In this document: piece by piece, positions 9,880-50,808 of the stretch
Layout of the letters: each line of letters starts with the position of its first letter
Position numbering within the stretch: the first letter of the stretch is position 1
NCBI RefSeq assembly: GCF_000379825.1
Contig: NZ_KB903825.1
Location: 356,584 to 420,583 of the forward strand
Origin: Longispora albida DSM 44784
GTDB lineage: Bacteria > Actinomycetota > Actinomycetes > Mycobacteriales > Micromonosporaceae
Length of the DNA stretch: 64,000 nucleotides
Direction: 5' to 3'
The notes under the pieces: model-generated
Told to the model about the DNA's origin: nothing
Database searches by the model: none
Seen by the model: the letters and a program-made list of their open reading frames with translations, nothing else
Program-made: the position numbers and the translations under genes

Positions 9880-10284
9880 ATGGGCGACTTCGACCTCCTG
9901 ACGCACGCGGTCCCGCTTGTGATCGGGCTCCTGATGCTCGGCGGAGCGATCTGGGCGGCTGCGACGATCCACATCAACGGCAAGAACTCGGTGTTCGCAC
10001 TCCTGGGGACGTTGTCGCTGATGTGCAGCGCGCTGATCTGGGCCTTCGGGTACGACCTGATGCACGAGCTGCTCGGCCACAGCGACGGGCTGGAACCGCG
10101 CGACGCGATGGCGGTACTCCTCGGGCTGAGCGTGGTGGCAGGGCTGCTGTTCCTGCTGCTGGGCGCGCTGCTCCCCCGCACGGCGAAGCCGGCCCGGGTG
10201 CTCCAGCCTCCGCCGCCGCCCCCGCCGGGGATGTACCCGCCACCGCCGCCACCACCGCAGCAGCAGCAGCCCTACGCCGGCTAG
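9880..10284 (+). CDS. Small membrane protein with proline-rich tail
   Basis: This 134-residue protein has three hydrophobic segments (VPLVIGLLMLGGAIWAA, FALLGTLSLMCSALIWAFG, VLLGLSVVAGLLFLLLGALL) and a tail of two polyproline runs and a QQQQ stretch. No family is recognised. Start ATG 9880 is chosen because hydrophobicity begins directly after it. Its stop overlaps the stop of the convergent GH1 gene in a CTAG palindrome at 10281-10284. Confidence 0.6.
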   Translation: MGDFDLLTHAVPLVIGLLMLGGAIWAAATIHINGKNSVFALLGTLSLMCSALIWAFGYDLMHELLGHSDGLEPRDAMAVLLGLSVVAGLLFLLLGALLPRTAKPARVLQPPPPPPPGMYPPPPPPPQQQQPYAG

Positions 10285-11603
10285 CTCTTGCCGGTGATCA
10301 GGTCGCGGTACCAGGAGTAGGAGGACTTCGGGGTGCGCCGCTGGGTGTCGTAGTCGACGTGCACGAGCCCGAAGCGCTTGGTGTACCCCTCGGCCCACTC
10401 GAAGTTGTCGAGCAGTGACCAGACGAAGTAGCCCCGGACGTCCACCCCGTCGGCGATGGCGTCACGGACGGCGTTGATGTGCCCGTCGAGGTACGTGACG
10501 CGGGCCGGGTCGGCGCACTCGCCTGCCGCGTCGACGGTGTCGTTGTAGGCGCAGCCGTTCTCGGTGACGTAGAGGGGCGGGAGCGCGTCGCCGTAGCGGT
10601 CCCTGAGCGCCGTCAGGGTCTCGCGGAGGCCGTCGGGGACGACGGACCAGCCGAAGGCCGTCTGCGGGTACCCGGGCGGCGAGGCGATGTCGAAGGGCAG
10701 CGGGCCGTCGGAGGTGGCCCGGACGGTGTGGGGCTGGTAGTAGTTCACGCCGAGGTAGTCGAGGGGCTGGGCGATGGTGGCCAGGTCGCCGTCGGCGACG
10801 AAGGGCAGCTCCCCCAGTTCCGCCGGGTAGGAGCCCAGGAGGACGGGGTCGGTGAGCAGCCGGTTCTGGAGCAGGTCGTACATGCCTGCCGCGAAGATGT
10901 CGGCCTCGTCGTCGCTGGCAGGGCGGGCCGGTGAGTAGCTGTTGATCAGCATGACGGGTGCCGGGCTGGTCTCGCTGAGTACCTGGACGGCGAGGCCGTG
11001 CGCCAGGAGCTGGTGGTGGCCGGCCGGCAGGGCTTCGAGGGCGAGCGTGCGGCCCGGGGCGTGGACGCCGAGGGCGTGGCCGAGGGCCATGTGCTCGAAG
11101 GGTTCGTTGAGGGTGGACCAGAGGGCGACGCGGTCGCCGAGTGCCTGGGACGCGATCCGGGCGTAGTCGGCGAAGCGGGCGGCCGTGTCCCGGTTCAGCC
11201 AGCCGCCGGTGTCCTCGAGGGCCTGGGGCAGGTCCCAGTGGTACAGGTTCACGACGGGCTGGATGCCCCGGCTGAGGAGCTCGTCGGTGAGCCGGTCGTA
11301 GAAGGCCAGGCCGGCCGGGTTGGCCAGGCCGCTGCCGTCCGGCTGGATCCGGGACCACGACAGGGAGAACCGGTAGGCGCCGATGCCCAGGTCCGCCATC
11401 AGGGCGACGTCTTCCGGGTACCGGTGGTAGTGGTCGCAGGCGTGGTCCCCAGTGGAGCCGTCGGCGATCCGGCCGGGCTGGCTCGTGAAGGTGTCCCAGA
11501 CGCTCGGGCCCCGGCCGTCGGCGGTCGCCGCGCCCTCGATCTGGTACGCGGCCGTGGAGGCCCCCCAGACGAAACCCTCGGGGAAACCCTGGACACCAGC
11601 CAT
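10281..11603 (-). CDS. GH1 family beta-glucosidase
   Basis: This 440-residue enzyme is a full-length glycoside hydrolase family 1 protein. It starts MAGVQGFPEGFVWGASTAAY, has the acid/base glutamate in TLNEPFEH (about residue 165) and the nucleophile glutamate in YVTENG (about 346), and ends NFEWAEGYTKRFGLVHVDY as usual. It hydrolyses beta-glucosides or related beta-glycosides in the cytoplasm (no signal peptide). It is last of three same-strand genes after the KAS III-diiron fusion and the DUF6999-like gene, 63 bp from the latter. It could act on a glycosylated product of that operon, which is inference. Confidence 0.92.
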   Translation of the reverse strand: MAGVQGFPEGFVWGASTAAYQIEGAATADGRGPSVWDTFTSQPGRIADGSTGDHACDHYHRYPEDVALMADLGIGAYRFSLSWSRIQPDGSGLANPAGLAFYDRLTDELLSRGIQPVVNLYHWDLPQALEDTGGWLNRDTAARFADYARIASQALGDRVALWSTLNEPFEHMALGHALGVHAPGRTLALEALPAGHHQLLAHGLAVQVLSETSPAPVMLINSYSPARPASDDEADIFAAGMYDLLQNRLLTDPVLLGSYPAELGELPFVADGDLATIAQPLDYLGVNYYQPHTVRATSDGPLPFDIASPPGYPQTAFGWSVVPDGLRETLTALRDRYGDALPPLYVTENGCAYNDTVDAAGECADPARVTYLDGHINAVRDAIADGVDVRGYFVWSLLDNFEWAEGYTKRFGLVHVDYDTQRRTPKSSYSWYRDLITGKS

Positions 11604-11666
11604 GACGCCTCCTCAGTCGATGGCGTGGACAGTACTGCGGGAGTACGGAAAATGAAAGGTTTTCAG

Positions 11667-12488
11667 TTACTGCTGGCTGAGTTCGAGGAGGCGGGCGTGG
11701 GCGTGCTCGCAGTAGACGGCGTGCTCGTAGACGGCGCGGGGGACGTCCATCGTGGAGTCGACCCGGATCGCGGTGCCCGCCGGGCGCCACGCGAGGAAGG
11801 ACGGGTCGCCGGTCGCGGCGGACAACAGCGCCATCAGCGGCTCGTCGAGCCGGAGGGAGTGCACGGCCCTGCGGTACTCCGAGCTGGTCAGGCAGAGGGC
11901 GAACGGGATGTTCATCAGGCACAGCGCTGTCTGGATGTCGAGCCGGAGGAAGCGGCGGGTACCAGGTTCGGCGTCGATGGGCGGCACGGTGAGCATGCTG
12001 AAGTCGAGGGCGGCCGGACGACCGCCGTGCCCGGTTCTGCCGAGGGCGATCAGGACGGCGTACACGTTGATGTCGTGCTCGATGACGGCGTGGTCGCCGA
12101 GCTGGCGCAGGGTCGTGGGGACCAGCGTGACCGGCGGCAGTTTCCCGGCGCCCGCGCTGTTGGCGATCAGGAAGTTGAGCAGGTTGGTCTCTATGACGAA
12201 GTGCCGGATGAGGAGCGCGCCGGCCTCGGGTGCCACGAACCTGCGCAGGAACCAGACACACAGCCGGTCCATGAGCCTGTGCGCGGTGAACTGGAACGGG
12301 AGGAGACGTTTTCCGAGGACGATGGCCGCCACGGCGAGGCGGGAGAACAGCCGGGCGGCCGGGTAGAGCCAGGCCCTCGTCCAGCGGCGCTGGTCGCGGA
12401 CGACCGCCTGGAGGGTCGCCGGGTCGAAGGGCAGGGCGTGGTTGTCAAGGATGGCTTCCCAGAGGGCGGGGCCAGCGCGATCAGACAT
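11667..12488 (-). CDS. DUF6999-like conserved protein
   Basis: This 273-residue protein has an N-terminal region LPFDPATLQAVVRDQRRWTR, amphipathic or weakly hydrophobic helices around LYPAARLFSRLAVAAIVLG, conserved-looking RHFVIETNLLNFLIANS and VIEHDINVY, and a helical C-terminal half. It fits the DUF6999 family from memory; no catalytic function is known. Its start overlaps the end of the KAS III-diiron fusion gene by 8 bp, so the two are translationally coupled and very likely work in one pathway. Confidence 0.7.
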   Translation of the reverse strand: MSDRAGPALWEAILDNHALPFDPATLQAVVRDQRRWTRAWLYPAARLFSRLAVAAIVLGKRLLPFQFTAHRLMDRLCVWFLRRFVAPEAGALLIRHFVIETNLLNFLIANSAGAGKLPPVTLVPTTLRQLGDHAVIEHDINVYAVLIALGRTGHGGRPAALDFSMLTVPPIDAEPGTRRFLRLDIQTALCLMNIPFALCLTSSEYRRAVHSLRLDEPLMALLSAATGDPSFLAWRPAGTAIRVDSTMDVPRAVYEHAVYCEHAHARLLELSQQ

Positions 12489-14238
12489 TGTTCAGCTCCG
12501 CCAGCTGGAGGGCGTAGAGCCGGGCGGTCACCTTGGCGGTCTTGACGATCCGGGCCGCCGTCGCCCGGTCGATCAGCCCGGAACGGAGCACGTCGCGGAG
12601 CTTGGCGAAGTGGTCGTCGTCGTTGGCCCCGTGGTACCGGAGGAAGGTCGTCTGGTCCTCGCCGAGCCCGAGCTGCTCCGAGAGGAGGCCGGCCCAGTGC
12701 AGCGCCTTCGCCGTACCGAGGCCCTCGATCACGAACATCGCGCCGAGCAGGTCGACCGGGTCGGGCTGACCGGCCTGGTGGAACATGAAAGCCGACAAGG
12801 CCTCCGAGCCGATGTTCTTCGGTGCCGTGCGGATCACGTCCGGGTCGCCGCCGGTCGCCACATAGTCGGCTTCGAGCAGGCGGAAGTCGCGGTGTTCCTC
12901 CGCGGCGTGGCCGATCGCGAGGCTGCGCAGCTCGAAGTACTCGGCGGAGAACTGCGAGGCGGCCCGCGCGATCCACCGGCCGCCCTCGATGACCTGCTGG
13001 CGGAGGTTGACCAGGAGGTCGCGGTAGTCGGCCAGGGTCGCGGTACCCGACTCGATGCGGCGGACGACGGGCACCCTGGCCAGCTCGGCCTCCAGGCCCG
13101 ACCAGACCTGGGCGAGCTGCTGGACCGTCCAGCTGACGGTGTCGGAGTCGTCGGGCCGCGGGGCGCCCAGCGGGGACTGCGTGGTGTGGCGTGAGGCCGG
13201 GGCGACGCAGGTCAGGTGGGCGAAGGCGTAGGTGAAGCGGCCTGATTCCGGTACAACCACAAGGATTTTCTGGTCCGGGGTGAACCTTCCGGACCGCAGG
13301 CACTCGTCGAGCATCACGAAGATGCTGGCCGCGCCGGTGTTGCCTGCCGAGGGCAGATTGCTGAACCAGCGGCTCTCGTCCACTGTGGTGCCCGCCTGGC
13401 CGAGCAGCCGGAAGATGGTCTGGCGGAAGTGGTCGGCGCTGTAGTGGCAGAGGATGTGGTCGAGAGCAGCCGGGTCGGTGCTCGCCAGGAACTCGCGGAG
13501 GCCGAGCCTGGCGAGAGCTGGGAGTGCCCGCATGTCCTGCCGGAGCTGAAAGAGGCCGTCGGCGGCCGCTTCGGGGATCGTCGGGTAGTCCTGCCAGGTC
13601 TGGCCGGTGGCCTGATTGAGGCCGGCGCTCATGCAGACCGGGTGGTCGTGCGCGTGGGAGGTGACGCGGACCCAGTCGAGGCGGAGAGACGGCCGGTCGG
13701 GATGCGGGGACGATTCGAGAACGACGGCACCGGCCCCGTCCGACAGCGTCCAGCGCAGGAACTCGGTGTCGGCCGTGCCGCCGGAGTGAAGAAGTGAGCG
13801 GCTGACGAGTTCCGAACCCGCGACGACAGCGGTGTCATGCTCACCGAGCCGGATCTGGGCCGCAGCGGCCTTGAGCGCCGCCATGCTGGAGGCACAGACA
13901 CCGGCGGCGGAGAGGGTCTCCATCGGGCCGCCGCCGATCCGGCCGTGCACCATCGAGGCGAACCCGGGGACGAGCAGATCGGGCTGCGTCGTACCGGTGG
14001 CGAGCATGCCGACATCGGACGGGGTGATACCGCGAGCGGTCAGAGCCTGGGTGATGGCTTCGGCGGCCAGGTGCTCGTTGAGCACGCCGGGCGCGGCGTA
14101 GTGGCGGGTCTTTATGCCGTTGGCGGCGAGAACCTTCTCGCGGAACGGGTTGTCGCCGAAACGGTCCGCGAGAGCGTGGTTGTCGACGGGCGCGCCGGGC
14201 AGGTACGAGCCGGTCGCGGTGATGAAGACTTCTCTCAT
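12481..14238 (-). CDS. Fusion: KAS III-like ketosynthase with C-terminal heme-oxygenase-like diiron domain
   Basis: This 585-residue protein has two domains. Residues 1 to about 345 are thiolase-fold and FabH-like: MREVFITATGSYLPG, nucleophile Cys in AAGVCASSMAAL (about 115), His in ILCHYSADHF (about 266) and Asn in LPSAGNTGAAS (about 294). Residues from about 355 to the end form an all-helical PqqC/heme-oxygenase-like domain with EGGRWIARAA, HAAEEHRDFRLLEADY and YHGANDDDHFAKL, metal-ligand spacings seen in iron-containing redox enzymes such as UndA-type oxidases. A condensation followed by an oxidative step on the same acyl chain is the natural reading. The product is unknown. Confidence 0.8.
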   Translation of the reverse strand: MREVFITATGSYLPGAPVDNHALADRFGDNPFREKVLAANGIKTRHYAAPGVLNEHLAAEAITQALTARGITPSDVGMLATGTTQPDLLVPGFASMVHGRIGGGPMETLSAAGVCASSMAALKAAAAQIRLGEHDTAVVAGSELVSRSLLHSGGTADTEFLRWTLSDGAGAVVLESSPHPDRPSLRLDWVRVTSHAHDHPVCMSAGLNQATGQTWQDYPTIPEAAADGLFQLRQDMRALPALARLGLREFLASTDPAALDHILCHYSADHFRQTIFRLLGQAGTTVDESRWFSNLPSAGNTGAASIFVMLDECLRSGRFTPDQKILVVVPESGRFTYAFAHLTCVAPASRHTTQSPLGAPRPDDSDTVSWTVQQLAQVWSGLEAELARVPVVRRIESGTATLADYRDLLVNLRQQVIEGGRWIARAASQFSAEYFELRSLAIGHAAEEHRDFRLLEADYVATGGDPDVIRTAPKNIGSEALSAFMFHQAGQPDPVDLLGAMFVIEGLGTAKALHWAGLLSEQLGLGEDQTTFLRYHGANDDDHFAKLRDVLRSGLIDRATAARIVKTAKVTARLYALQLAELNNV

Positions 14239-14334
14239 GCCTCCATCTCCCCACGGCGGGGAGGACGGGACATCGGGAGCGGTACTCAGACCGGGCGGGA
14301 CCGATACTCAGGGGCGGGTGAGTACGGGGAGAGA

Positions 14335-14805
14335 TCAGGCTGGGCGGAAGCCGAGGGCGGTGTAGAGGAGGATGGCCGGCTCGTTGGCCGGGTCGACGCG
14401 CAGGGCGACCCGGGGGCGGTCCGTTCCGGCTGCCAGGCTCAGCACCTCGCCGAGGAGGCGGCTCGCGAGACCCTGGCGGCGGTACGCCCGGCTGACGTGC
14501 AGGTCGATCACGAACGGGCAGTCAGGAGTGTCCGGCCATGGCGCGCGGTGCACGGTATAGACCGCCGCTACCGGGCGGCCGTCGGCCTCCGCGAACAGGG
14601 TCGCCTCCGGCCACAGTGGACCGTATCCGCCGTCGAACCCGAGCCGGATGTCCGCGATGGCCTCGGCTTCGGTGGCCCAGGCGACGCCCGGCTCGTAGCA
14701 CTCGAAGTACAGCTGGCCCAGCCGCTCGGCCTCCGGGGCGGTGGCCAGGGTGAGCGGCGGTCCGGGGAAGGAGACGCGGGTGGCTTCGGCGACGAATACC
14801 GTCAT
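14335..14805 (-). CDS. GNAT-family N-acetyltransferase
   Basis: This 156-residue protein starts MTVFVAEATRVSFPG at ATG 14805; a longer frame to 14853 lacks coding character. Motif A is visible as IDLHVSRAYRRQGLASRLL (acetyl-CoA binding R-x-x-G-x-A), followed by VALRVDPANEPAILLYTALGF. It transfers an acetyl group to an unknown amine. It stands alone between the KAS III operon and a divergent lipoprotein gene. Confidence 0.85.
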   Translation of the reverse strand: MTVFVAEATRVSFPGPPLTLATAPEAERLGQLYFECYEPGVAWATEAEAIADIRLGFDGGYGPLWPEATLFAEADGRPVAAVYTVHRAPWPDTPDCPFVIDLHVSRAYRRQGLASRLLGEVLSLAAGTDRPRVALRVDPANEPAILLYTALGFRPA

Positions 14806-14864
14806 GAGGGGCAGCTTAGAGGTCAGGTGGGGGCGGGGTTGCCCCGAGCGCATAGTGTGCTCGC

Positions 14865-15299
14865 GTGCGAACCAAGATCATGTCGATGGCGCTGGCGGCT
14901 GTGGGGGCTGCGGCTCTCACTGGGTGTTCCGGGCGGGGTGAGCTGCCGGAGGCCGTGAGCCGCTTGGGCAGCAGTTCCCCGGGTGGCGGCAGCAGTTCGT
15001 CTCCTGCGGGTAGCAGCCCGCGTGCCGAAGCCGCGTGCCCCAGTGACAAGGAAGTCCTGGAGGCGGCGGCAGCCAGCAACACCGGGCTGCCGGGCGGCGT
15101 GACCGTCCAGCCAGGAATGGTGTGCTCGTCCGGCTGGGCAGTGGCCTCCCTGTACGCGCCCAGCGCCGGGCCGGCCCGCGCCGTCCTCCAGAAGACCGGC
15201 GGCCGGTGGATCGTGCTCACCCTGGGCAGCGCGGAACTCTGCACTGCTCCGGGTGTGCCTGCGGCACCTGAGGCGATCCGCCGGGAGCTGCGCTGCTAG
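14865..15299 (+). CDS. Small secreted lipoprotein, unknown function
   Basis: This 144-residue protein from GTG 14865 has a lipoprotein signal ending AAALTGC (lipobox Cys about residue 21), a Ser/Gly-rich linker, and a compact C-terminal domain with CPSDKEVLEAAAAS, MVCSSGWAVASLY and a terminal RRELRC. Four cysteines after the lipobox may form disulphides. No family is recognised. Its stop overlaps that of the convergent acetyltransferase by 4 bp. Confidence 0.7.
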   Translation: MRTKIMSMALAAVGAAALTGCSGRGELPEAVSRLGSSSPGGGSSSSPAGSSPRAEAACPSDKEVLEAAAASNTGLPGGVTVQPGMVCSSGWAVASLYAPSAGPARAVLQKTGGRWIVLTLGSAELCTAPGVPAAPEAIRRELRC

Positions 15300-38918: not shown

Positions 38919-39107
38919 CGGCCGATCATCCACTACTGCCGGCCCGCACCGCCCGGATTTCACCGCGCCAATGCTCTGCTCACAGTAGCCGTGACCAGCA
39001 GCCGACTTGGTGTCCGCGTACCCGGGGATTCTGCTGTGCCGCTGGCAGGCGTCGCCGGAGACGCCTGCCCCGCCGTCCCGCAGCCTGCCGCCGTCGCTGA
39101 GCCTGTC

Positions 39108-39754
39108 GCGTACACGCTGACGACCAAAGTCCCGGCCCTGCTTCCACGTCCGCGTGTTCTCGTCCTCCAGTTGCCCGGTGGCCCGGTACACGTGATCATC
39201 ACTGACCGGCTTCCGTCGTTCCCCGGCTCCCTGCGTCGTGTCTTCGCGTCCCGGGCCCCGGAGCGGCTCGTGGCGTTCCTCGGTTTTCGCACGTGGCCAG
39301 AGCTCGTCCCCAGGTACCCGTGGGCTGGTCTGTCGGCCAGGGACCCGTTCGAGCCGCTGGAGACGGTGGACCTGTTCAGCATAGGCTGGGTGCTCGACGC
39401 GTCCTGCGAGCTGAGCTCCCAGCCTGTGTGCCGCGACGTGTGCGGTGTGTGGGTGCCCGTACCGGACGTCTCCACCAGCGCCCTCCCGGCCGGCAGCCTG
39501 GACACGGCGATCCTGCTGTTCGGGGCGCTGTTCGCGAGCCGGGGCAGCAACTCGCAGCTCGCGACCCCGCAGCGGATCGCCAACTCGTCCGGCCCGTCGC
39601 AGGCGCCATCACTCAGGCGAGGTGGCTGCCCGCCGACGTGCTCCGGCATCACCTATGCGAGCAGCACCGGTACCGCTCCGCAAGCTGGTGGTGGCAGTTC
39701 CTCGACACCCTCGAACGCCGCTTTAAATTATGTTCGTGGCGGGTGTTCCTAGGA
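39108..39754 (+). pseudogene. Frameshifted gene of unknown function in the mobile element
   Basis: One plus-strand frame shows good codon use from about 39110 (TKVPALLPRPRVLVLQLPGG, VDLFSIGWVLDASCELSS, LDTAILLFGALFASRGSNSQ) up to about 39600. Coding character then jumps to another frame reading GAITQARWLPADVLRHHLCE and SWWWQFLDTLERRF up to a 40-bp palindrome. No clean start is seen. The single shift near 39600 suggests a decayed gene, or a base error. The family is not recognised. Confidence 0.5.
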
Positions 39755-39770
39755 ACACCCGCCACGAACA
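39731..39770. terminator. Perfect 40-bp palindrome, likely bidirectional terminator
   Basis: The left half 39731-39750 (TGTTCGTGGCGGGTGTTCCT) is exactly the reverse complement of 39751-39770. It lies between the end of the frameshifted plus-strand gene and the stop of the convergent DNRLRE/FG-GAP gene. Confidence 0.7.
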
Positions 39771-39779
39771 TGAGTATCT

Positions 39780-42700
39780 CTATCCGAAAACTAACCGGTT
39801 CCAGTCGAGCTTTCCGCTGCCGCTCCGCCAGCCGATGCTTGAAGCGCCGTTGAAGCTGGTACCGGTAGACGGGTGGGTCCAGATGCCAGTGTCGCTGTTG
39901 TCGTAGTTGTAGTAGGCGACGATGTCAGCCTTGCCGTCGCCGTTGTAGTCAGAAGCCGTGATCTTCATTCGGGCCGGGTCCGCGTACCAGGCGGGGTGGT
40001 CATGCCAGCTGACAGGAGATCTCCATGTGTTACGGACCGCGCCAGCCGTCGGCTTGTTGCTGATGAACGTCCAGATCTTCCAGGACTGGTCGGCATAACC
40101 AGTGAGATGAGCAAGGTCAGTGGTGCCGTTGCCGTCGAAGTCGCCAGTCACGACCTTGACGTTGTCCAGGTACCAGCCGGTCTTCTGTTCCCAGAACTTG
40201 TCCATGGCACTGAACCCACCGGCACCGTCGGAAATCCATTCCCACAGGGCGGCGTGGCCGCCACCGTAGTTGTAGAAGGCTGCGATGTCGGCCTTGCCGT
40301 CTCCGTTGAAGTCGCCCGCGATCGGGGTGGCCGCCTTCATGTCCCAGTATCCGGCGGTGGCCTGGGACCACACCTGCTTGGCCAGGCCGAGGCTGGTGCC
40401 GCCGGACAGCCACATCCAGGCGCTGGCGCTGGCGTTGCCGTAGTCGAAGAACATGGCGGCGTCGCTTTTGCCGTCCGCGTTGAAGTCCCCAGCGATGAAC
40501 TTCATCTGGCTGATCGGCGAGGAGGCCAGACCTGCATCGGTTTCGGGTAAAGACGTGTAGCCGTTGCTGTTGGACTGCAGGATGGAGACGTAGAGCTTGC
40601 CTGCGGCCTCACGGAATATCGCCACGTCAGATCGTCCATCGCCGGTGAAGTCCCCGGTGACGTGCCGGATCTTGCTGGCGTCGTATCCGGCATCCTTGCC
40701 GCTGGTCCAGGACTGGACAGGGTCGTACACGCCGTCCGGTTTGGAGATCCAGTCCAGCGTCGTCGCAGCACCATTGGCAGGGTCGGTGTAGCGGGCGGTG
40801 ATGTCGGCAACGCCGTTGCCGTTAACGTCTCCGGGCTTCTTCGAGAGTTCAGCCTCCGGTTCCGAGGCGGTGAAGTGATATTTCCTGCTACCAGCGTGGA
40901 TATTGCCTGCCTTGTCTCTCGCCCGGACGTAGAGATCCTGTGGACCGGGCGCGGTCATGTCCGGAGACCAGACGGTCACTGGCACGTCAGCCGTGCCGTC
41001 GCTGCGAGCCTTGACACTGGTGGCCGGCGGGTCGCTGAGGCCGTAGACGTATTCGGCGACGTCGGTGTCGCCGTCGGGCCTGAAAGTGAAGGTGGCGGTC
41101 TTGCGTGTCAGCCCGGGACCATAGTCGTCTTCGATGAAGTCCGGCGAGGTGACAATCGGGGCCTTGGGCGGAGTTCTGTCGACGACGAAATCGCACCAGC
41201 CGGACCATGGCCCAGTGGCGCCCGAGGCGTCAGTGGCCTTGACCCGCCACGAGATCCATTCGCCGTCCCTCAACGCTGTGGCTGGGATTGTGGTGGTTAC
41301 CGGGGTTCCTGATGGCTTGTAGGCGGTATCAACCTCGGCGATGAATCCGCCGTTGGTGTAGGACCAGCCGAAGGTCGCCTTGACGTTCTCACCCGTAACG
41401 CTCGCATCAGGGTCACTGATGGTAGCACCCAAGCTGATTCCCTGACTGCCGTTGAAGTGCGGGCGCTGGCTGGCGGGCAGGCCGCTGACGCACTGGAAAT
41501 TGCCCTCAGCCGACAGACCAGCGGGGATGTTCGGGCTGGTGTTGTAGTTGATGACAATGGCTGGGTTGTTGTCGAATTTCTTCCAGCCAAATGCGTCAGA
41601 TTCGTTGCTGGCTTTCAGGCCGACAGCGACCGTGTTCCAGCCGCCCGACGCGGCGGATTGGAACAGGCTGGTGAGGTTCCATTCGAGCGGGAGCGCAGGG
41701 CAGTCGCCGCTGTAGCCGCTGGCGGCCCAGAGGGTTCCCTGGTTGCTGTACCACGCGGGCTGTTTGGTCCAGGTCGTGCTGCCGTCGATGACCCCGGTGT
41801 GCCACAGCTCGACGGGCCGGGCGTTGCAGGACCAGGAGTAGGTTTCGCTGATCTTGAAGGTCGCCGACAGGATCTGCTTGCCGGCCACAGATCCGACGCC
41901 GAACTGGAAGAACGACCGGTTTGTCTGACCTGTATCCGATTCGTAGCCGACCCGGGCGATGTCGTTGGCATTGAGGTAGTTGGTGCCGGGGTATTGCTTC
42001 CACACCGACGTCCAGCTACCCCGGTTGAGGGTGATCCAGGGGTCGATGTGGACCGGGTAGACGGTGTCCGGCCCAGTGAGGAGTTTCTGATCCGGGACCA
42101 GAGACAGTTCACCCGGCTTGAGCTCGATGCCCAGCGGGGCGTGCCTGGCGCCCGCAGGTGCTGTTTCAGCGGGAGCCGCAGTTGCTGCACGGAGCTTGGT
42201 GGCGTTGCCGGAACCAGCTGCCGAGGAATCCCACATCTTCGGTGTCGGGCCGCGGAAGACCACGCTTCCGGCCGCGTCGGTGGCTGTGAGATTGCCCGCT
42301 GGGTCGGAGGCCAGCGTGAGGCCCTGGGTCCTGGTGGTGAACTTCACCTTGGCCAAGGCGGGATTGCTGGCGGCCTCGCGGGTCTTGACGACGAGAACCT
42401 CGGAGAAGCCCTCGGCATCGGCTCGGACGCGCAGGTCGACGCCGGGCATCACTTCGGGGTAAGTCGCGGTGTCCCCTGTCAGGGTCGGCTTGGGCAGTTT
42501 GCCCGGCCACCCCAGGGTGAACGAGGTACTGGTGCGGCTGGCTGTCGCAAGTGGCTGCTCTCCACCGCCGGAGAAGCTCAGGTCAACGGTGGTGGCCTTC
42601 GGCGCGACAGTACCGTCCGGACGGGTGGCCAAGGTCGTGTCAACGGGTACCCAGCCGTCGCCTCTGGCCACCCTGATGGGGCGGACATGCTGCTCCTCCG

Positions 42701-42941
42701 ACAGGGTGCCATCGGGATTAGCCCAGCGCGTGGTGGTCTCGGAGCGCTTGCTGGTGACTTCCACCCGAGTCTTCAGGGTGCGGGCGGCGGCGACGGCGCT
42801 CACCTCGCTGGGCTGTTCCGCAGCCGGAGGGGCTGCCATGGCTGGTGGAGCTGAGAGCAGCGGCACTGGCACAGCAGCGGCAACCGCGAAGACGAGTAAG
42901 TGTGGCGCGCGGTTCCGCCAACGCCGGTTACTTCGAGTCAC
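39780..42941 (-). CDS. Secreted DNRLRE-domain / FG-GAP (VCBS-like) repeat protein
   Basis: This 1,053-residue protein uses GTG 42941, chosen because AAAGG lies 7 bp upstream; the frame extends to 43025. A signal peptide (HLLVFAVAAAVPVPLLSAPP, AMAAPPA) is followed by a beta-rich region, a DNRLRE-type domain (around residues 310-480, NARPVELWHTG, SLFQSAASGGW) and a fibronectin-like part. From about 700 there are six calcium-binding FG-GAP loops: DVNGNGVAD, DFTGDGRSD, DFNADGKSD, DFNGDGKAD, DFDGNGTTD and DYNGDGKAD. It is divergent from the RHS toxin, so it is probably a surface partner of it. Confidence 0.85.
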   Translation of the reverse strand: MTRSNRRWRNRAPHLLVFAVAAAVPVPLLSAPPAMAAPPAAEQPSEVSAVAAARTLKTRVEVTSKRSETTTRWANPDGTLSEEQHVRPIRVARGDGWVPVDTTLATRPDGTVAPKATTVDLSFSGGGEQPLATASRTSTSFTLGWPGKLPKPTLTGDTATYPEVMPGVDLRVRADAEGFSEVLVVKTREAASNPALAKVKFTTRTQGLTLASDPAGNLTATDAAGSVVFRGPTPKMWDSSAAGSGNATKLRAATAAPAETAPAGARHAPLGIELKPGELSLVPDQKLLTGPDTVYPVHIDPWITLNRGSWTSVWKQYPGTNYLNANDIARVGYESDTGQTNRSFFQFGVGSVAGKQILSATFKISETYSWSCNARPVELWHTGVIDGSTTWTKQPAWYSNQGTLWAASGYSGDCPALPLEWNLTSLFQSAASGGWNTVAVGLKASNESDAFGWKKFDNNPAIVINYNTSPNIPAGLSAEGNFQCVSGLPASQRPHFNGSQGISLGATISDPDASVTGENVKATFGWSYTNGGFIAEVDTAYKPSGTPVTTTIPATALRDGEWISWRVKATDASGATGPWSGWCDFVVDRTPPKAPIVTSPDFIEDDYGPGLTRKTATFTFRPDGDTDVAEYVYGLSDPPATSVKARSDGTADVPVTVWSPDMTAPGPQDLYVRARDKAGNIHAGSRKYHFTASEPEAELSKKPGDVNGNGVADITARYTDPANGAATTLDWISKPDGVYDPVQSWTSGKDAGYDASKIRHVTGDFTGDGRSDVAIFREAAGKLYVSILQSNSNGYTSLPETDAGLASSPISQMKFIAGDFNADGKSDAAMFFDYGNASASAWMWLSGGTSLGLAKQVWSQATAGYWDMKAATPIAGDFNGDGKADIAAFYNYGGGHAALWEWISDGAGGFSAMDKFWEQKTGWYLDNVKVVTGDFDGNGTTDLAHLTGYADQSWKIWTFISNKPTAGAVRNTWRSPVSWHDHPAWYADPARMKITASDYNGDGKADIVAYYNYDNSDTGIWTHPSTGTSFNGASSIGWRSGSGKLDWNRLVFG

Positions 42942-43202
42942 GACCGAACCTTTCCCCGTGTGGTTCTGCCCAGCGGTCCCCAGGGCAGCGGCCGTGACTC
43001 TACGTGCACTTTCACTGGCGTCCAAACCCGAAGCAGTGATACATAGCGGGTAAATGGCCGAGGGGTGATGTTAAGGAACTGTGAATATCACGGCTCGGTC
43101 ACGTTTGATTCGAAGGCTGGTGTGCGGTTTGACACCGCTTCCGAAAGCGCAGTTAGGGTGCCCGTCGACACGCAGCGTATTCATAACCTCGGGGGAGGAA
43201 CC
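42942..43202. promoter_or_regulatory. Divergent promoter region of the DNRLRE and RHS genes
   Basis: This 261-bp gap holds a plus-strand promoter with TTGACA (43129-43134), an 18-base spacer and TTAGGG (43153-43158), about 45 bp before the RHS start. GGGGGAGG lies 5-10 bp before the GTG at 43203. A minus-strand candidate -10 is TATGTA near 43040. Confidence 0.5.
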
Positions 43203-46200
43203 GTGCACTTGTACGGCCGCTGGAAGGCGACCTCAAGCAAACGCGCGATCATCACGGCATTGAGCACGATGCTGGTGACTGGCCTGCTGGGGCCAGCACC
43301 AGCCTTGGCTGCGCCTTTCACGCCATCGGCGCCTCAGCGGGATAAATCCGTCCGAGTGACGAACGTGAAACCCAGCCCACGGACGTCCGATGAAGGCGCC
43401 AAGCGGGCCCTGCGTGCTTCTCCCAAGGTCACTTGGCCGAGTGCCGGAGCCGCGGAATTGGAAGTTCCCGGACCTGGAGCTGGGAAGGTCAAGGCAGGAT
43501 CGCTTCCTGTCGAAGTCAGCACACCCGCCGAGGCCGGAAGCCCCGCGGCGCCACCGTCTGCTGGCAAGCGCAAGGCCAGGGTCGAGATCCTCGACCGCAA
43601 GGTAGCCGAGCGAGCCAAGCAGCACGGCGTCCTCCTGCGCGTCGACAGCCCCGCGTCTGGCAAGGTGCGGCTCGACCTCGACTACTCCACGTTCCGCGAC
43701 GCGTTCGGCGCCGATTGGGGCTCACGGCTGCGGCTGGTCAGCCTGCCGGAATGCGCACTGGTAACGCCTGACAAGCCTGGGTGCGAGGGCGTGCCAGTGC
43801 CCTCAAAGAACGATGCCAAGAGCAGCAAGCTGTCAGCTGATGTCGAGGTCTCCGCGACGGGGGCGATGCCACGTAGTGCCGGCTCCGCGCCGATGCTCTT
43901 CGCCGCTGCCGCAGCCCCGACCGGAGGCAGCGGTGACTACACGGCCACCTCTCTGTCGCCCTCGGCCACCTGGAACTCTGGCGGCTCGGCCGGCGACTTC
44001 ACCTGGAACTATGACCTGAGCACTCCGCCCGTCCCCGGCAACCTGGTACCGAAGCTGAGGTTCTCGTACTCCTCCGCCAGCGTTGACGGCCGGACATCGG
44101 CGACCAATAACCAGCCTTCCTGGCTTGGTGAGGGCTTCGACTTCTGGCCTGGGTTCATCGAGCGCCGCTACAAGCCGTGCATGGATGACATGACCGGCGG
44201 CAACAACACCACCAAGACCGCCGACCAGTGCTGGTACGCCGACAACGCCACGATGACGCTCAACGGATCGGCGACGGAACTGGTCCGCGACGATGCAACC
44301 GGTGTATGGCGTCCGAAGAACGACAACGGCGCCCGGGTCGAGAAGATCACGGGCGCGGTCAACGGCGACAACGACGGTGAACACTGGAAGGTCACCACTG
44401 TAGACGGGACGCAGTACTACTTTGGCCTGCAGCGCCTGCCCGGCTGGGCGGCAGGCAAGCCGGAGACGAAATCGGTGTTCACCATGCCGGTCTTCGGTAA
44501 CCACACTGGTGAGCCGTGCAAGGCCGGTGCTTTTGACCTCTCGTGGTGCCAGCAGGGATGGCGATGGAACCTCGACTACATCGTCGACACCCACGGCAAC
44601 GCGATGAGCTACTACTACGAGCAGGAAACCAACAACTACGGGCGTAACCTCGACTCCGCCAAGGCTACTGGCTACACCCGGGGTGGATACCTGGCCCGCG
44701 TGGACTACGGCATGCGCTCGGGCGAGGAGTACCTTGGCGCTCCGGCGCGGGTGGTGTTCGGCTCAGCCGATCGTTGCATCCCCGGAACCAGTTGCGACAA
44801 GAGCCAGCCTGCGAACGCCCCGGACATCCCGTGGGACCAGAACTGCGACAGCGGTACCTGCGCGAAGTTCGCCCCAACCTTCTGGACCACCAAGCGACTG
44901 GCCAAGGTAACCACACAGATCTGGGGCGGATCCGCCTACCGTGATGTGGATTCCTGGACACTCGAACACAGCTTCCCAGCCAGCGGCGACGTAACCAAGC
45001 CCGTGCTGTGGCTGGACTCGATCACCCGCGCCGGTCACGTCGGTGGCACCGCGGTGATGCCCAAGGTGACCTTTGCCGGCACGCAGATGCCCAACCGCGT
45101 CGTCGCGGCCGATGGCATCGACCCTATGATCCGCCGCCGCATCAACGCGATCTTCAACGAGACCGGCGGATCCATCGCGGTGAACTACTCAGCCGCCGAA
45201 TGCAGCGCAGACACGAAGCCCACTCCTGAAACCAATACGACCCGGTGTATGCCGGTCTATTGGACCCCGCAAGGTTTCACTGAGCCGACTCTGGACTGGT
45301 TCAACAAGTACGTGGTCACGTCTGTGTCCGAAAGTGACAACACAGGTGGTTCGCCCGGCACCGTCGTCCGCCACGAATATATCGGGAATCCGGGCTGGGC
45401 CTACGACGACAACGACCTGACCAAAGACAAGCATCGCACCTGGGGCGTCTGGCGCGGATACCAGAAGGTTCGCACCACCACTGGCGAGGCATGGGAACCA
45501 CAGGGCCTGACCGAGACCTCCTACTACCGAGGTATGCACGGCGACAAACTGTCCTCGGGAACCCGGACCGCTACGATCACCGACTCCGAAGGTGCCGTCG
45601 TCAACGACGACAAGTGGCTGACCGGCAGGTTGCGTGAAAGCATCACCTACAACGGTCCCAGCGGTTCAGCGGTAGCCAAGACCATTACCGACCCGTACAC
45701 CTCCGCACCGACCGCGAGCCGGACCTATAACGGCCGCACCAGCGAGGCCCGGGTCGTGGCAACCGGCAAGTCCCGCAGCTACACAGCCCTTGCTGGTGGT
45801 ACCTGGCGCGTCACCGAACTCGCCAGCACCTACGACGCCCAGGGCCTCGTCACCCAGGTGGACGACCTCGGAGACATCAAGGTCGACAACGACAACAAGT
45901 GCACCCGGACCACCTATGCCCGCAACGACGCCAAGTGGATCCTGAACAAGCCCAGCAGGATCGAAACCGTTGGCTCCGCATGCGGCCAAACTCCGGCCTT
46001 CCCCGGTGACGCATTGACGGACCTGCGCACCTACTACGACGGCAACGCAACGCTCGGCCCGGTTGACAAGGGCGACGCGACCCAGGTTGACGCCATCTCC
46101 GGCTGGAGCAACGGCCAGCCTGTCTACACCGTTACCGCAACGTCGACCTTCGACGCCTACGGCCGCGCCCTGACCATCCGCGATGTGCTCGGCCGGACCA

Positions 46201-49200
46201 TCACCACCGAGTACACCCCTCAGATGGGGCTTGTCACCAGCACCAAGGCGACCAACGCAGCCGGGATGAGCAGCACAACGACTGCAGACCCGGCTACTGC
46301 GCTTCCCACCTCCAAAATCGACACCAACGGCAAGCGCACCGACCTGGCATACGACCCTCTGGGCAGACTTCTCAAGGTCTGGCTGCCCGGCCGGAACAAG
46401 GCCACGGACACCCCCAACATCGAGTACGAGTATCTTGTCCGCACCGACGGGCCGATCACCGTGACGTCGAAGAACCTGATGGCAGACGGTACCTACCGGT
46501 CCACGTTCGCTCTCTATGACGGGCTCATGCGCCCTCGGCAGACCCAGACCGCCAGCCCCAACGGCGGACGCCTGATCACTGAGACCAAGTACAACAGCCG
46601 CGGCCAGGCATTCAAGAAGAACGGCCCGTACTACAACACCGCAGCACCTGGAAACAGTCTGGTCACGGCGAACGACAATGAGGTGCCCGGCCAGACCGTC
46701 GTCACCTTCGATGGCGCGGGCCGGGCCATCGCCGAGACGTTCTGGGTTTACGCCACCGAGAAATGGCGCACCACAACCGCGTACTTCGGTGACCATGTCG
46801 ACGTGACTCCGCCCCAGGGTGGCGCTGCGGCCAGTACGTACACCGACGCGCGTGGGCGGACTTCCGAAGTCCGGCGGTACAGATCCGGCTCGCCGTCGGG
46901 AACCTATGACACCACCAAATACACCTACACCAAGCAGGACGCGCTCGCCACGGTCACCGACCCGGCCGGAAATACCTGGACCTACGGTTATGACATCCGG
47001 GGTCGGCTGATCTCCTCGACCGATCCCGACAAGGGCGCCAGCACCAGCACCTACGACGACGCCGCCCAGTTGCTAACCACCACTGACGCACGCGGCAAGA
47101 CCCTCGCGTTCAACTACGACACTCTGGGGCGTAAGACGTCGGTCCGAGCCGGCTCGCAGACCGGCCAGCTGCTGGCCAAATGGACATACGACACCCTCTA
47201 CAAGGGCCTTGCCACATCCAGCACCATCTTCAACAACGGCAACGCCTACACAACTGAGACCACGGGCTACGACGAGGCCTACCGGCCCACCGGTACCAAG
47301 GTCACCATTCCGGCCTCGGAAGGCAAACTCGCCGGGACCTACGCCTTCGGCTCCACCTTCAACATCGACGGCTCCGTGGCCACGCAAAGCCTGCCAGCAG
47401 CTGGCGACCTGCCAGCAGAAACTCTCACGTTCGGCTACACGCCCCTCGGCCTGCCGCTGAAGACGACCGGGCAGACGCCGTACGTCACCAACACCACCTA
47501 CACCAGCTACGGCGAGCAAACCCAGCTCGAACTCACCACGACAACCAACGCCACCAAGCGCTTGTGGCTGTCCTCCTACTACGAAGACGGCTCACGCCGA
47601 CTGCAGCAGACCCTGGCCGAACGTCAGGCCACCGGCATGCAGCAGGGCAAGACCACATACACCTACAACCCGATCGGCAACATCACACAGATCTCGGAGG
47701 CCCCCAAGGCAGCTGCAGCCGAGACCCAGTGCTTCCGGTACGACCACGCCCGCCGTCTTACCGACGCATGGACGCTTGGAAGCACCACGCCCGACTGCAG
47801 CCAGGCACCTGGCAACACCACAATCGGCGGGCCTGCACCGTACTGGCACAGCTGGACCTTCGACACCACTGGTAACCGGCTCAGCGAGACCCGGCACGCC
47901 AGCACCGGTGACACAACCAGGACGTACGTCTACGCTGCTGCGGGCCAAGCCCAGCCTCACGCCGCCCGTTCGGTGCGCACCACCGGCCCTGGCGCAGACC
48001 GGACCGACGCCTACGGCTACGACGTCACCGGCAACACGACCACCCGGCCCAATGGGACCAGTACCCAGGCACTGGAGTGGAACATCTTCGGCAAGCTCGC
48101 CAAGCTCACCGAAGGTAGTGCGACCCACAGCTTCGTGTACGCAGCCGACGGCACGCGCATCCTCCGGCGTGACACGACGGGTACGACTCTTTATCTCGGC
48201 TCCAGCGAAGTGCGCCTGGACAACTCTTCACAGGCCCTGACCGGAACCCGGTACTACACGCACGGCGGAGCCACCGTCGCAGTCCGCACCGTGGCTGGGG
48301 TGACGTGGCTGGCAACTGATCACCATGGCACCAACACCATGGCCTTCAAGGCATCGGACCTGTCGGTGCAGTTCCGCCGGGCCTCGCCGTACGGCGAAAG
48401 CCGAGGCACCGCGCCGACCGCATGGCCAGGCGACAAGGGCTTCGTCGGAGGTACCAACGACCCGACTGGCCTCGTCCACATCGGAGCGCGCGAGTACGAC
48501 CAAACCGCCGGACGGTTCATCTCCGTTGACCCGATCCTTGACACCAAGGATCCCCAGCAGATGAATGGCTACACCTACGCCAACGGCAATCCCATCAGCA
48601 TGAGTGATCCCACTGGACTCCGGCCCGAATGTGGCGATGGAAACATGTGGGATAAGTGTGACAACTCGCAGAGCCCCGACGAAGCTCCTGACGGCTGCGA
48701 GGGTATGGGTTGTAGTGGCTGGGACGACAACAACTCCAACCATGGCCGGCCCATCGACGTCAGCCCCGGCAACCCGCTCACTGAGATCCAAGTCGCCACG
48801 TTCCTGTATCCGACCAGGCACGTCGACTCGCTGAGCCGCAACGAGCGAGCTTCTGTCAGGCAGTCCTTCATTCAGCACAACTTCCCCAAGGAATACAGGA
48901 AGTGGGCCGAGGCTGAACTCAAGAAGCAAGACGAGGAGTTCCATGAACTCTTCAGCTGGATTCCGGTCATTGGAATCCCATCTGCACTCATCGTTGCGAA
49001 GCGCGACGCCAGCAAGGGCCACTACGTGGCTGCCACTCTCGGCGCTGCAGGCATTATTCCGGCCGGTAAGGTGGGAAAGGTCTTGGCTGGCGCTGGGGAT
49101 CTGGCGAAAGCCGGCAAGGCTGCCGACGTATTTGTGCAAGTTGAGAAAGGTGGAACTCGCTACAGATACGCAAGCCGCGGGGAGACGCAGTTCGAGTTCA

Positions 49201-49454
49201 AGACTGGCCACGGCTTCGATCGAGCGCACACAGGTCCTGGCGGCGTGAAGCGGGACTTTGGCGGCTCGGGCCTTACCCCAGACGATATCGAATCCAGTAT
49301 CATGGATGATCTGATGACAAAGCTCGACAGCCTTCCTGCTTCCAGACCACATGAAGGTGCTGTCGTCATCAACGGACAGTATGCTGTCGGATATCGCGTG
49401 ATCAGCCTGCCTGGCAAAGTAAGTGTAGCGACCTATTGGCCAGCTGGGTCATAG
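43203..49454 (+). CDS. Secreted RHS/YD-repeat polymorphic toxin
   Basis: This 2,083-residue protein from GTG 43203 has a strong ribosome binding site. A signal peptide ends near ALAAPF (about residue 38). Then come a SpvB-like shell region, many YD repeats (for example YDPLGRLLKVW, YDIRGRLISSTDPDKG, YNPIGNITQ) and the RHS core end YTYANGNPISMSDPTGL (about 1,800). The 280-residue variable C-terminus has a pretoxin helix pair (FSWIPVIGIPSALIV, GIIPAGKVGKVL) and a terminal domain (GHGFDRAHTGPGG, RDFGGSGLTPDDIE, AVGYRVISLPGK) that resembles BECR-type RNases by pattern only. The next gene is its probable immunity protein. Confidence 0.88.
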   Translation: MHLYGRWKATSSKRAIITALSTMLVTGLLGPAPALAAPFTPSAPQRDKSVRVTNVKPSPRTSDEGAKRALRASPKVTWPSAGAAELEVPGPGAGKVKAGSLPVEVSTPAEAGSPAAPPSAGKRKARVEILDRKVAERAKQHGVLLRVDSPASGKVRLDLDYSTFRDAFGADWGSRLRLVSLPECALVTPDKPGCEGVPVPSKNDAKSSKLSADVEVSATGAMPRSAGSAPMLFAAAAAPTGGSGDYTATSLSPSATWNSGGSAGDFTWNYDLSTPPVPGNLVPKLRFSYSSASVDGRTSATNNQPSWLGEGFDFWPGFIERRYKPCMDDMTGGNNTTKTADQCWYADNATMTLNGSATELVRDDATGVWRPKNDNGARVEKITGAVNGDNDGEHWKVTTVDGTQYYFGLQRLPGWAAGKPETKSVFTMPVFGNHTGEPCKAGAFDLSWCQQGWRWNLDYIVDTHGNAMSYYYEQETNNYGRNLDSAKATGYTRGGYLARVDYGMRSGEEYLGAPARVVFGSADRCIPGTSCDKSQPANAPDIPWDQNCDSGTCAKFAPTFWTTKRLAKVTTQIWGGSAYRDVDSWTLEHSFPASGDVTKPVLWLDSITRAGHVGGTAVMPKVTFAGTQMPNRVVAADGIDPMIRRRINAIFNETGGSIAVNYSAAECSADTKPTPETNTTRCMPVYWTPQGFTEPTLDWFNKYVVTSVSESDNTGGSPGTVVRHEYIGNPGWAYDDNDLTKDKHRTWGVWRGYQKVRTTTGEAWEPQGLTETSYYRGMHGDKLSSGTRTATITDSEGAVVNDDKWLTGRLRESITYNGPSGSAVAKTITDPYTSAPTASRTYNGRTSEARVVATGKSRSYTALAGGTWRVTELASTYDAQGLVTQVDDLGDIKVDNDNKCTRTTYARNDAKWILNKPSRIETVGSACGQTPAFPGDALTDLRTYYDGNATLGPVDKGDATQVDAISGWSNGQPVYTVTATSTFDAYGRALTIRDVLGRTITTEYTPQMGLVTSTKATNAAGMSSTTTADPATALPTSKIDTNGKRTDLAYDPLGRLLKVWLPGRNKATDTPNIEYEYLVRTDGPITVTSKNLMADGTYRSTFALYDGLMRPRQTQTASPNGGRLITETKYNSRGQAFKKNGPYYNTAAPGNSLVTANDNEVPGQTVVTFDGAGRAIAETFWVYATEKWRTTTAYFGDHVDVTPPQGGAAASTYTDARGRTSEVRRYRSGSPSGTYDTTKYTYTKQDALATVTDPAGNTWTYGYDIRGRLISSTDPDKGASTSTYDDAAQLLTTTDARGKTLAFNYDTLGRKTSVRAGSQTGQLLAKWTYDTLYKGLATSSTIFNNGNAYTTETTGYDEAYRPTGTKVTIPASEGKLAGTYAFGSTFNIDGSVATQSLPAAGDLPAETLTFGYTPLGLPLKTTGQTPYVTNTTYTSYGEQTQLELTTTTNATKRLWLSSYYEDGSRRLQQTLAERQATGMQQGKTTYTYNPIGNITQISEAPKAAAAETQCFRYDHARRLTDAWTLGSTTPDCSQAPGNTTIGGPAPYWHSWTFDTTGNRLSETRHASTGDTTRTYVYAAAGQAQPHAARSVRTTGPGADRTDAYGYDVTGNTTTRPNGTSTQALEWNIFGKLAKLTEGSATHSFVYAADGTRILRRDTTGTTLYLGSSEVRLDNSSQALTGTRYYTHGGATVAVRTVAGVTWLATDHHGTNTMAFKASDLSVQFRRASPYGESRGTAPTAWPGDKGFVGGTNDPTGLVHIGAREYDQTAGRFISVDPILDTKDPQQMNGYTYANGNPISMSDPTGLRPECGDGNMWDKCDNSQSPDEAPDGCEGMGCSGWDDNNSNHGRPIDVSPGNPLTEIQVATFLYPTRHVDSLSRNERASVRQSFIQHNFPKEYRKWAEAELKKQDEEFHELFSWIPVIGIPSALIVAKRDASKGHYVAATLGAAGIIPAGKVGKVLAGAGDLAKAGKAADVFVQVEKGGTRYRYASRGETQFEFKTGHGFDRAHTGPGGVKRDFGGSGLTPDDIESSIMDDLMTKLDSLPASRPHEGAVVINGQYAVGYRVISLPGKVSVATYWPAGS

Positions 49455-49471
49455 GGGAAGGTGTGTGGGTG

Positions 49472-49822
49472 ATGAGTGTGGACCCCCTTGACATTGCGGC
49501 TCGGCAACTGACTGGGCAGCTTCAGTCGGATGGTGACCCGCGCATCGGTGCGCTCGCGGTTGAATACATCGAAACAATCGCTTACGCCGACGCGGACGCC
49601 ATTCTCCATATGCTGCATGTCAGTCTTGAAGAGCGTGGCTGGTACTTGCCCGTCTGGGCTCGATTGCTGGCCTACCGCCTCGCTTGTCTTCAGCGACCAC
49701 AAGACGCTGAACTCCTGCGTGAGGCCGCCAATGATCTCGTGCTGCACGGCCCGGACTGGGATGACATAGCTGCGCAGTTGATGGATAGGGCTCTAGCGGT
49801 CGAAGGTCGCGAGTCTTCGTAG
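49472..49822 (+). CDS. Probable immunity protein of the RHS toxin
   Basis: This 116-residue acidic all-helical protein reads MSVDPLDIAARQLTGQLQSD, with ILHMLHVSLEERGWYLPVWA and a C-terminal WDDIAAQLMDRALAV. It starts 18 bp after the toxin stop and is the last gene before a hairpin. Small, acidic, non-secreted proteins in this place are usually cognate immunity proteins. No Pfam immunity family is recognised, so the role rests on position. Confidence 0.7.
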   Translation: MSVDPLDIAARQLTGQLQSDGDPRIGALAVEYIETIAYADADAILHMLHVSLEERGWYLPVWARLLAYRLACLQRPQDAELLREAANDLVLHGPDWDDIAAQLMDRALAVEGRESS

Positions 49823-50377
49823 ACAGCTAGACATAGGTGCCCTATAGGGCTGAATGCAATGTGCATCGATACGAGGGATCGCCTGTATAGCAGGCGGTCC
49901 CTCGGCTGGTGGTCCGCTAGTTCTGGCTGCAATGGCTGTAGCACTGATGGCGGCATCGCCATCGTGGCCACCGATGCCCGGGACGTTCTGGGTGGCTCTA
50001 CTTTCCCCGTTGCCGTCCTGCATGGATGTTCGTTGTGATTGGCGTGAATGAGATCGCGGGGTAGTCGCTGGGGCTGGATGATCTCATAGCGCGGGTGGCT
50101 GGCCGGTTCGGGCAGCCTGAACCGCTGCGGCGGCCCCGTCGTACGTGCCGGGTTTGCTGCCGCCTGCGCAGGGGAAGAATGACTGGATTCTTGAGCCATC
50201 ACATCACGTAAGTAGGCCAATCTCCGCAGTGAAATCTCGCCAGCCCTGCAACGACCATACAACCGGCTGGATCGGCGAAGTGAATCGTCGCGTCCAGTCC
50301 ATATTTGACAGTCGCGGAAGTATCAGCTAGTTTGACCACATGAACACCTGTGTGTGGCACAGGTGCTACTGGGGCGC
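49823..50377. other. Right end of the first element, no intact gene
   Basis: About 555 bp. CGAGGGATCGCCTG (49872-49885) pairs with CAGGCGGTCCCTCG (49891-49904) across TATAG with one G-T pair, a likely terminator of the toxin/immunity unit. CACCTGTG/CACAGGTG near 50345-50365 forms a second small hairpin just before the att copy. The minus frame over 49690-50262 has weak coding character and is not called. Confidence 0.5.
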
Positions 50378-50399
50378 GTTCAAGTCCCCCTTCGGACAC
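50378..50399 (+). repeat. Right att repeat (copy of tRNA-Leu 3' end)
   Basis: GTTCAAGTCCCCC followed by TTCGGACAC is a copy of the tRNA-Leu 3' end at 36409-36430 with one mismatch. The rest of the tRNA is absent. The sequence beyond it resembles that beyond the left copy and leads into the 3' end of a second recombinase. Confidence 0.8.
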
Positions 50400-50425
50400 T
50401 CAATTACCCCATATAGATCTTGGGG

Positions 50426-50797: not shown

Positions 50798-50808
50798 CCG
50801 GGCGGACG

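Follow-up and report, generated by a model that had tools for sequence, protein, structure and literature searches.

A conserved ketosynthase, haem-oxygenase-like oxidase and DUF6999 gene set in Longispora albida and its possible part in an oxidative lipid pathway

We analysed a stretch of 64,000 nucleotides of Longispora albida DSM 44784 (contig NZ_KB903825.1, hereafter the window), which carries three neighbouring genes on the minus strand. They encode a fusion of a ketoacyl-ACP synthase III (KAS) domain with a haem-oxygenase-like diiron oxidase (HDO) domain, a DUF6999 protein, and a beta-glucosidase of glycoside hydrolase family 1 (GH1). Pfam detects ACP_syn_III, ACP_syn_III_C and Haem_oxygenas_2 in the fusion and Glyco_hydro_1 in the GH1 protein (504.1 bits). 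Coordinates, strand and Pfam domains therefore agree with the initial annotation, which had described a ketosynthase-diiron-type fusion overlapping a DUF6999 gene by 8 bp. The fusion is present as a single copy in its own genome, where three further matches are of the KAS III type with about 30% identity, and the GC content of the unit (0.70-0.71) is similar to that of its surroundings. The features and the residues discussed below are collected in Table 1.

Table 1 Features of the KAS-HDO-DUF6999 locus in the window and of a protein found upstream of KAS at other loci. AF2 AlphaFold2, pLDDT predicted local distance difference test, pTM predicted template modelling score.
Feature	Coordinates	Strand	Details
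KAS III-HDO fusion gene	12481..14238	-	585 amino acids; translation, Pfam, NCBIfam; AF2 model mean pLDDT 88.9, pTM 0.71
KAS domain, residues 1-350	13189..14238	-	Cys115, His265, Asn300; StlD (PDB 5gk0) match
HDO domain, residues 366-585	12484..13143	-	candidate ligands His444, Glu448, Asp451, Glu505, His536, Asp540, His543
DUF6999 gene (PF22523)	11667..12488	-	273 amino acids; His96, His138, Asp139, Asp184, Asp215, His256, Glu261
Overlap of fusion stop and DUF6999 start	12481..12488	-	8 bp; from coordinates
GH1 beta-glucosidase	10281..11603	-	440 amino acids; TIGR03356 587.7 bits; neighbour outside the conserved unit
Upstream protein of about 185-193 amino acids	L046:9651-10208; L180:2958-3539		also L124, L125/L180, L126, L149, L174, L175

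An alignment-based scan of the genome collection with DUF6999 returned 180 stretches, 123 of which encode a relative. The best 80 were kept as named loci; they represent the relatives closest to the query, and 43 weaker confirmed relatives were left out. By title, 77 of these loci belong to Actinomycetota, and the others to Ectothiorhodospiraceae (L124), Myxococcota (L125) and Bisbaumannia (L126). KAS, HDO and DUF6999 are all present in 80 of the 80 loci and lie on one strand in 79, DUF6999 being reversed in L125. Overlapping genes or tight gene spacing are usual among these relatives. This grouping is far beyond chance.

The same picture emerged from samples drawn by taxonomic rank. Within the family of Longispora, DUF6999 occurs in 16 of 101 genomes, and the other 15 all contain a fused gene followed by DUF6999. 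It was detected in 6 of 296 genomes of the class, where the other five all have adjoining KAS and HDO as separate genes, and in 6 of 298 genomes of the order, the neighbourhoods of G1303 and G1342 being left out. Please note that these samples overlap, as at least nine of the 15 family loci and two of the five class loci are already among the 80 named loci. In Gammaproteobacteria, the class of the Bisbaumannia genome G523, seven of 321 genomes encode DUF6999 and five of the seven contain the trio (G523, G545, G603, G750 and G828); in G578 the DUF6999 gene is in pieces with an end piece of KAS nearby. In Myxococcota, the phylum of G522, DUF6999 was found in 15 of 146 genomes (14 above the cut-off), with the trio in 11 fetched neighbourhoods and partial weak matches without the trio in G891 and G969. 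Of 14 control genomes, that of Caulobacter vibrioides also gave a DUF6999 match, and a Pseudoalteromonas plasmid carries the trio as annotated neighbours. The earlier proposal that DUF6999 belongs with the ketosynthase and the oxidase is thus borne out in most genomes examined, including all 80 named loci and the class, family and other samples. The link between the three genes appears obligate with few exceptions, and the trio is a real and conserved unit.

KAS and HDO share one reading frame in 30 of the 80 named loci and occupy separate neighbouring frames in 50. The fused gene occurs in Actinomycetota, in Myxococcota (L166-L172, L176 and L181, including seven of seven in L166-L172) and at L146 and L147. 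In phylogenetic trees of KAS, the second of which includes the long branch L147, the separate genes of Micrococcales-type genera are nested within a group of fused genes (nine rows, 100/100 support), which suggests that a fused gene was split in these genera. That KAS and HDO are linked repeatedly, whether in one gene or in two, strongly suggests that both act in one pathway.

The catalytic residues Cys115, His265 and Asn300 of the KAS domain occur in every one of the 98 rows aligned, and the complete Cys/His/Asn set noted in the initial annotation is confirmed. Its description as FabH-like holds in so far as the domain is of the KAS III type with a complete active site; instead of simply FabH-like, however, it is StlD/DarB-like according to four comparisons. 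The best NCBIfam model is the StlD/DarB family beta-ketosynthase (NF005293, 290.1 bits), the best PDB match by phmmer is StlD (PDB 5gk0, 7.4e-60), and StlD is also the top solved-structure match of the fusion model in Foldseek. VIA-align gave Z 38.8 for StlD over 341 residues with 37% identity, followed by AbyA1 (35.3), FabH (34.3) and OleA (up to 33.4, about 21% identity). In its fold and active site the KAS domain thus resembles StlD/DarB, although it lies outside the family by the curated cut-off.

The HDO domain matches Haem_oxygenas_2 (PF14518) with 33.2 bits (gathering cut-off 28.9), and the distant trio member L124 falls below this cut-off with 24.5 bits. When the HDO family profile was compared to the PDB, it matched the TENA/THI-4-type protein 3dde with E 2.5e-9; a match to MboA was weak (E 0.35). 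The AF2 model of the whole fusion is helical over residues 366-580, and KAS matches filled both of its fold listings. The iron ligands of MboA are given as Glu86, His89, Glu143, His172, Asp176 and His181 (PMC13185094). On the weak alignment with E 0.35 and an inferred offset of 25, Glu86, His89 and Glu143 would correspond to Glu448, Asp451 and Glu505. All seven candidate ligands listed in Table 1 are present in each of 97 trio rows, and His449 in 96 of 97. Where the canonical ExxH motif has His, all 97 rows have Asp. Four HDOs from outside the trio (Vibrio, Citrobacter, Pseudoalteromonas and G969) have ExxH with His at the place of Asp451, and Tyr or Lys at the place of His444. The HxxxDxxH motif (His536, Asp540 and His543) is common to both groups, and the extra invariant His444 sits four residues ahead of the metal-site residue Glu448. 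According to a review of the superfamily, most sites consist of three His and three carboxylates, about a quarter have a fourth carboxylate, and single-iron cases exist (PMC13108848). Taken together, the ligand alignments and this range of site types make a rearranged site of three His and four carboxylates, with one His moved, possible. As to the iron ligands presupposed by the initial annotation, candidate ligands are kept throughout the alignment, in a set other than the canonical one.

The third component is a clear member of PF22523 (277.9 bits, cut-off 27), with an all-helical AF2 model (mean pLDDT 88.5, pTM 0.87). Its residues His96, His138, Asp139, Asp184, Asp215, His256 and Glu261 are each conserved in 97 of 99 rows; the non-identical rows are gaps, apart from Asp139 and Asp184 with one other residue and one gap each. 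Glu100 and Glu204 vary more (86 of 99 rows each). Judged by this conservation, the three His and four acidic residues have the make-up of a candidate metal site. Comparison by sequence to the PDB yielded no meaningful match (best E 0.5), and none of 129 Foldseek matches (E up to 10) reached E 0.001, the first having E 0.9 and the HDO BesC, in second place, E 1.0. The best VIA-align match was to a G-protein-coupled receptor (Z 4.2); as the tool itself cautions, a weak or missing fold match does not establish a new fold. A hidden HDO was considered and rejected, as hhalign of the two family profiles returned a probability of 0.6%. The H...HD...D string in the protein resembles a motif of HD domains; no HD chain was among the listed fold matches, which does not exclude an HD fold.

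Beyond the trio, we compared 87 aligned regions (the window, the 80 named loci, L011-L015 and L046; L011 and L015, at the least, duplicate loci from the named set). A larger conserved cluster was rejected, since the trio stands alone in all 87. Families found in 85, 83 and 64 regions lie mainly on frames overlapping the trio and were read as shadow frames, and the next commonest (29 and 24 regions) appear by eye to be regulator- and kinase-like. Neither ligases nor carrier proteins accompany the trio as conserved genes in these regions, and no oleBCD genes, for which no search by name was made, stood out among the conserved neighbours. Relatives of fatty-acid desaturases occur near the trio at eight distinct places among 105 sequences searched; FA_desaturase was confirmed by Pfam in the four tested, one of which lies beside an FA_hydroxylase. 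These neighbours fit a fatty-acyl substrate or lipid chemistry, without being general. At L168:7189-8061 a desaturase gene is located between the KAS-HDO fusion and DUF6999, and a relative occupies the same place in L172.

Three further observations concern the surroundings of the trio and of its relatives. A conserved protein directly upstream of KAS (Table 1) was found at seven distinct Proteobacteria- or Myxococcota-type places; Pfam matched neither of the two members examined. At L014:10282-12827, beside the trio in G094, frames resemble by eye an aldehyde dehydrogenase and an amidohydrolase. HDO relatives with 24-26% identity belong to a repeated cluster (L129:3531-5690, L130:4938-5603 and L131:4989-5654) of a thermostable hemolysin, as annotated, an AMP-binding protein, the HDO and a short-chain dehydrogenase/reductase; the HDO match of L129 falls within the gene of the AMP-binding protein. 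Within the window itself, positions 39000-51000 show a lower GC content (0.60-0.67 compared to about 0.70 around) and are possibly acquired DNA.

In the known pathway, darB is called DAR-cyclase and darA DAR-aromatase (PMC3949708), and co-expression of both leads to a dialkylresorcinol (PMC3992019). Genome G082 (L045) contains a related KAS (45% identity), followed by a DarA-like candidate and by frames named by eye as polyketide synthase-like and ligase-like. A Streptomyces plasmid (L128) harbours a related pair of KAS and partner (47.6% over 78% of the query). On the basis of a motif, we tentatively take the partner that follows KAS at both loci to be DarA-like. The two KAS have no HDO nearby and group with the KAS of Myxococcota trios with 98/95 and 98/94 support. 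Should this partner be DarA, one type of KAS would work with DarA in some genomes and with HDO and DUF6999 in others. It is mainly this exchange of partners that leads us to place the chemistry of the trio close to the cyclohexanedione/resorcinol pathway; the weakest link in this reasoning is the tentative identification of the partner as DarA. A search of the Longispora genome with the putative DarA-like protein from L045 gave no match; according to the tool, an empty answer of this kind shows nothing. On the plasmid, L128:5712-13110 encodes a carrier protein, the DarB-like KAS, a hypothetical protein, a FAD oxidoreductase, an SCP2 protein, FabF, a P450 and a second carrier protein.

A StlD/DarB-like KAS, an HDO oxidase and DUF6999 thus make up the conserved unit. 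Its roles in condensation and oxidation rest on firm ground; for the reaction and product, we infer a route that we put forward tentatively, as a possibility to be taken seriously, in which a StlD/DarB-like condensation is followed by oxidation of the product by the HDO domain, with DUF6999 as third component. KAS would load an acyl chain on Cys115 and condense it with a second fatty-acyl thioester, the substrates probably being a beta-ketoacyl and an enoyl chain as for StlD/DarB. This would lead to a 2,5-dialkyl-cyclohexane-1,3-dione or its acid. The product may then pass to the attached HDO domain and be oxidised with O2 at a two-metal site; examples of such a step would be a hydroxylation or a dehydrogenation leading toward a dialkylresorcinol. 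DUF6999, predicted as all-helical and with a nearly invariant set of three His and four acidic residues, might be a second metalloprotein that carries out an additional step or assists the oxidase. Together, HDO and DUF6999 would then take the place that the aromatase DarA has in the dialkylresorcinol pathway. The initial annotation had suggested an unusual lipid, alkene or signal made by oxidation in cis. Of its view, the fusion of a complete KAS III-type domain to an HDO domain and the link to DUF6999 are supported; the class of product is not readable from the sequence.

In its fullest form, the proposal would be a self-contained, widespread and undescribed O2-dependent route from two fatty-acyl thioesters to a ring lipid. 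DarA would be replaced by an HDO with His444-Glu448-Asp451 in place of Glu-x-x-His together with a DUF6999 metalloprotein of unseen fold, and the fusion would channel the product. We consider it rather unlikely that this version holds in every part.

Several observations weigh against the StlD/DarB-like route. Its ring-forming chemistry is carried over by analogy from StlD/DarB, and the window KAS stays under the curated cut-offs (290 versus 450 bits for NF005293, 243 versus 550 for DarB), as do the three other trio KAS tested (L124 384.2, L046 372.2 and L123 320.8 bits for NF005293). For the partners in L045 and L128, Pfam gave no match, and NCBIfam none better than E 0.089. Furthermore, a single clade of trio KAS is not rejected (approximately unbiased test, p-AU 0.059), although the trees nest the two KAS with DarA-like partners inside it. 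With regard to linkage, G600 encodes DUF6999 alone without the trio KAS, G936 has DUF6999 far from the fusion, which sits elsewhere in the genome, and G875 contains KAS and DUF6999 with no HDO match. Finally, desaturases are missing from the window and from most places among the 105 sequences.

Two other chemistries would also employ both domains. The KAS could form a linear beta-keto acid by head-to-head condensation as OleA does, and the HDO could then remove CO2 oxidatively to yield an alkene or ketone, in the manner of UndA, which is an HDO fatty-acid decarboxylase (PMC13108848). OleA is indeed among the structural relatives of the domain, yet StlD is closer in both Z score and identity. 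In addition, a catalytic Glu precedes the active Cys by 26 residues in OleA (E117/C143, the latter number taken from PDB titles) and by 24 in PpyS (E105/C129) (PMC4578411), whereas no Glu occurs at this spacing in residues 77-106 of the window KAS, an argument from spacing made without an alignment. Nor did oleBCD stand out among the conserved neighbours. We regard this chemistry as unlikely. To the same degree we doubt that the HDO acts before the condensation, or apart from it, by desaturating or hydroxylating an acyl chain or forming an alkyne on it, with KAS joining the modified chain afterwards. Desaturation is known for HDOs from MboA (PMC13185094), HDO relatives with 24-29% identity lie beside or are fused to AMP-binding proteins in three regions read, and some trios have the membrane desaturases described above in their vicinity; against this stands the lack of a conserved ligase or carrier protein.

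That the HDO is no two-metal oxidase at all, and binds one metal or none while serving KAS in a structural role, seems improbable. The invariant Asp in place of the ExxH His and the existence of single-iron HDOs (PMC13108848) would agree with such a role, but seven ligand-type residues are invariant, including the HxxxDxxH motif that is said to be partly lost in single-iron HDOs (PMC13108848), and stand-alone HDO genes persist in the 50 loci with separate frames. A wider operon, in which a glycosylated product of the set would be the substrate of the GH1 glucosidase, is very improbable. The gene does follow on the same strand 63 bp after DUF6999, and no terminator-like site was found in 10200-14900, but GH1 had no match in 80 named loci or in 15 same-family loci, at least nine of which are already among the 80. 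GH1 was accordingly rejected as a member of the unit. The operon with a beta-glucosidase in the initial annotation therefore describes the gene order of this genome and not a conserved association, and the idea of a glycosylated product falls with it.

Within the open-licence literature searched, the KAS-HDO-DUF6999 unit is undescribed. No function is described for PF22523, and no paper naming DUF6999 was found there, nor any combining 'iron-containing redox enzyme' with 'ketoacyl-ACP synthase III' or dialkylresorcinol with heme oxygenase, and the topic of diiron enzymes, resorcinols and ketosynthases led to CylC only. The papers listed by broader searches did not, judged by title and beginning of the abstract, deal with the unit. 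If the StlD/DarB-like route is true, StlD/DarB-type ketosynthases would gain a new reaction partner and DUF6999 a first functional setting, and the HDO metal site would offer a naturally occurring change that single mutations could probe. Any genome with DUF6999 would then be a candidate producer of the same class of compounds, which offers a search handle. With two or three genes, the unit is small enough that expression in an ordinary host could reveal its product.

With StlD/DarB of stilbene, cyclohexanedione and dialkylresorcinol biosynthesis, the window KAS shares the fold, a full-length match to StlD and the Cys/His/Asn triad, but it scores below the NCBIfam cut-offs and is fused to or located beside an HDO instead of DarA. 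OleA and PpyS likewise have a KAS III fold that joins two acyl chains; the window KAS is less similar to them in structure and sequence and has no Glu where the spacing of their catalytic base would place one. Its HDO domain resembles the superfamily of UndA, BesC, SznF and MboA in the Haem_oxygenas_2 match, the Glu of the first core helix, Glu505 and HxxxDxxH, and differs by Asp451 in place of the canonical His, the extra His444, the attached ketosynthase and the DUF6999 partner. The cyanobacterial DarB clusters with CylC are comparable in that DarA and DarB genes are clustered with a two-metal enzyme (PMC8406957); they differ in that they include DarA and that CylC is a dimetal halogenase from a different family.

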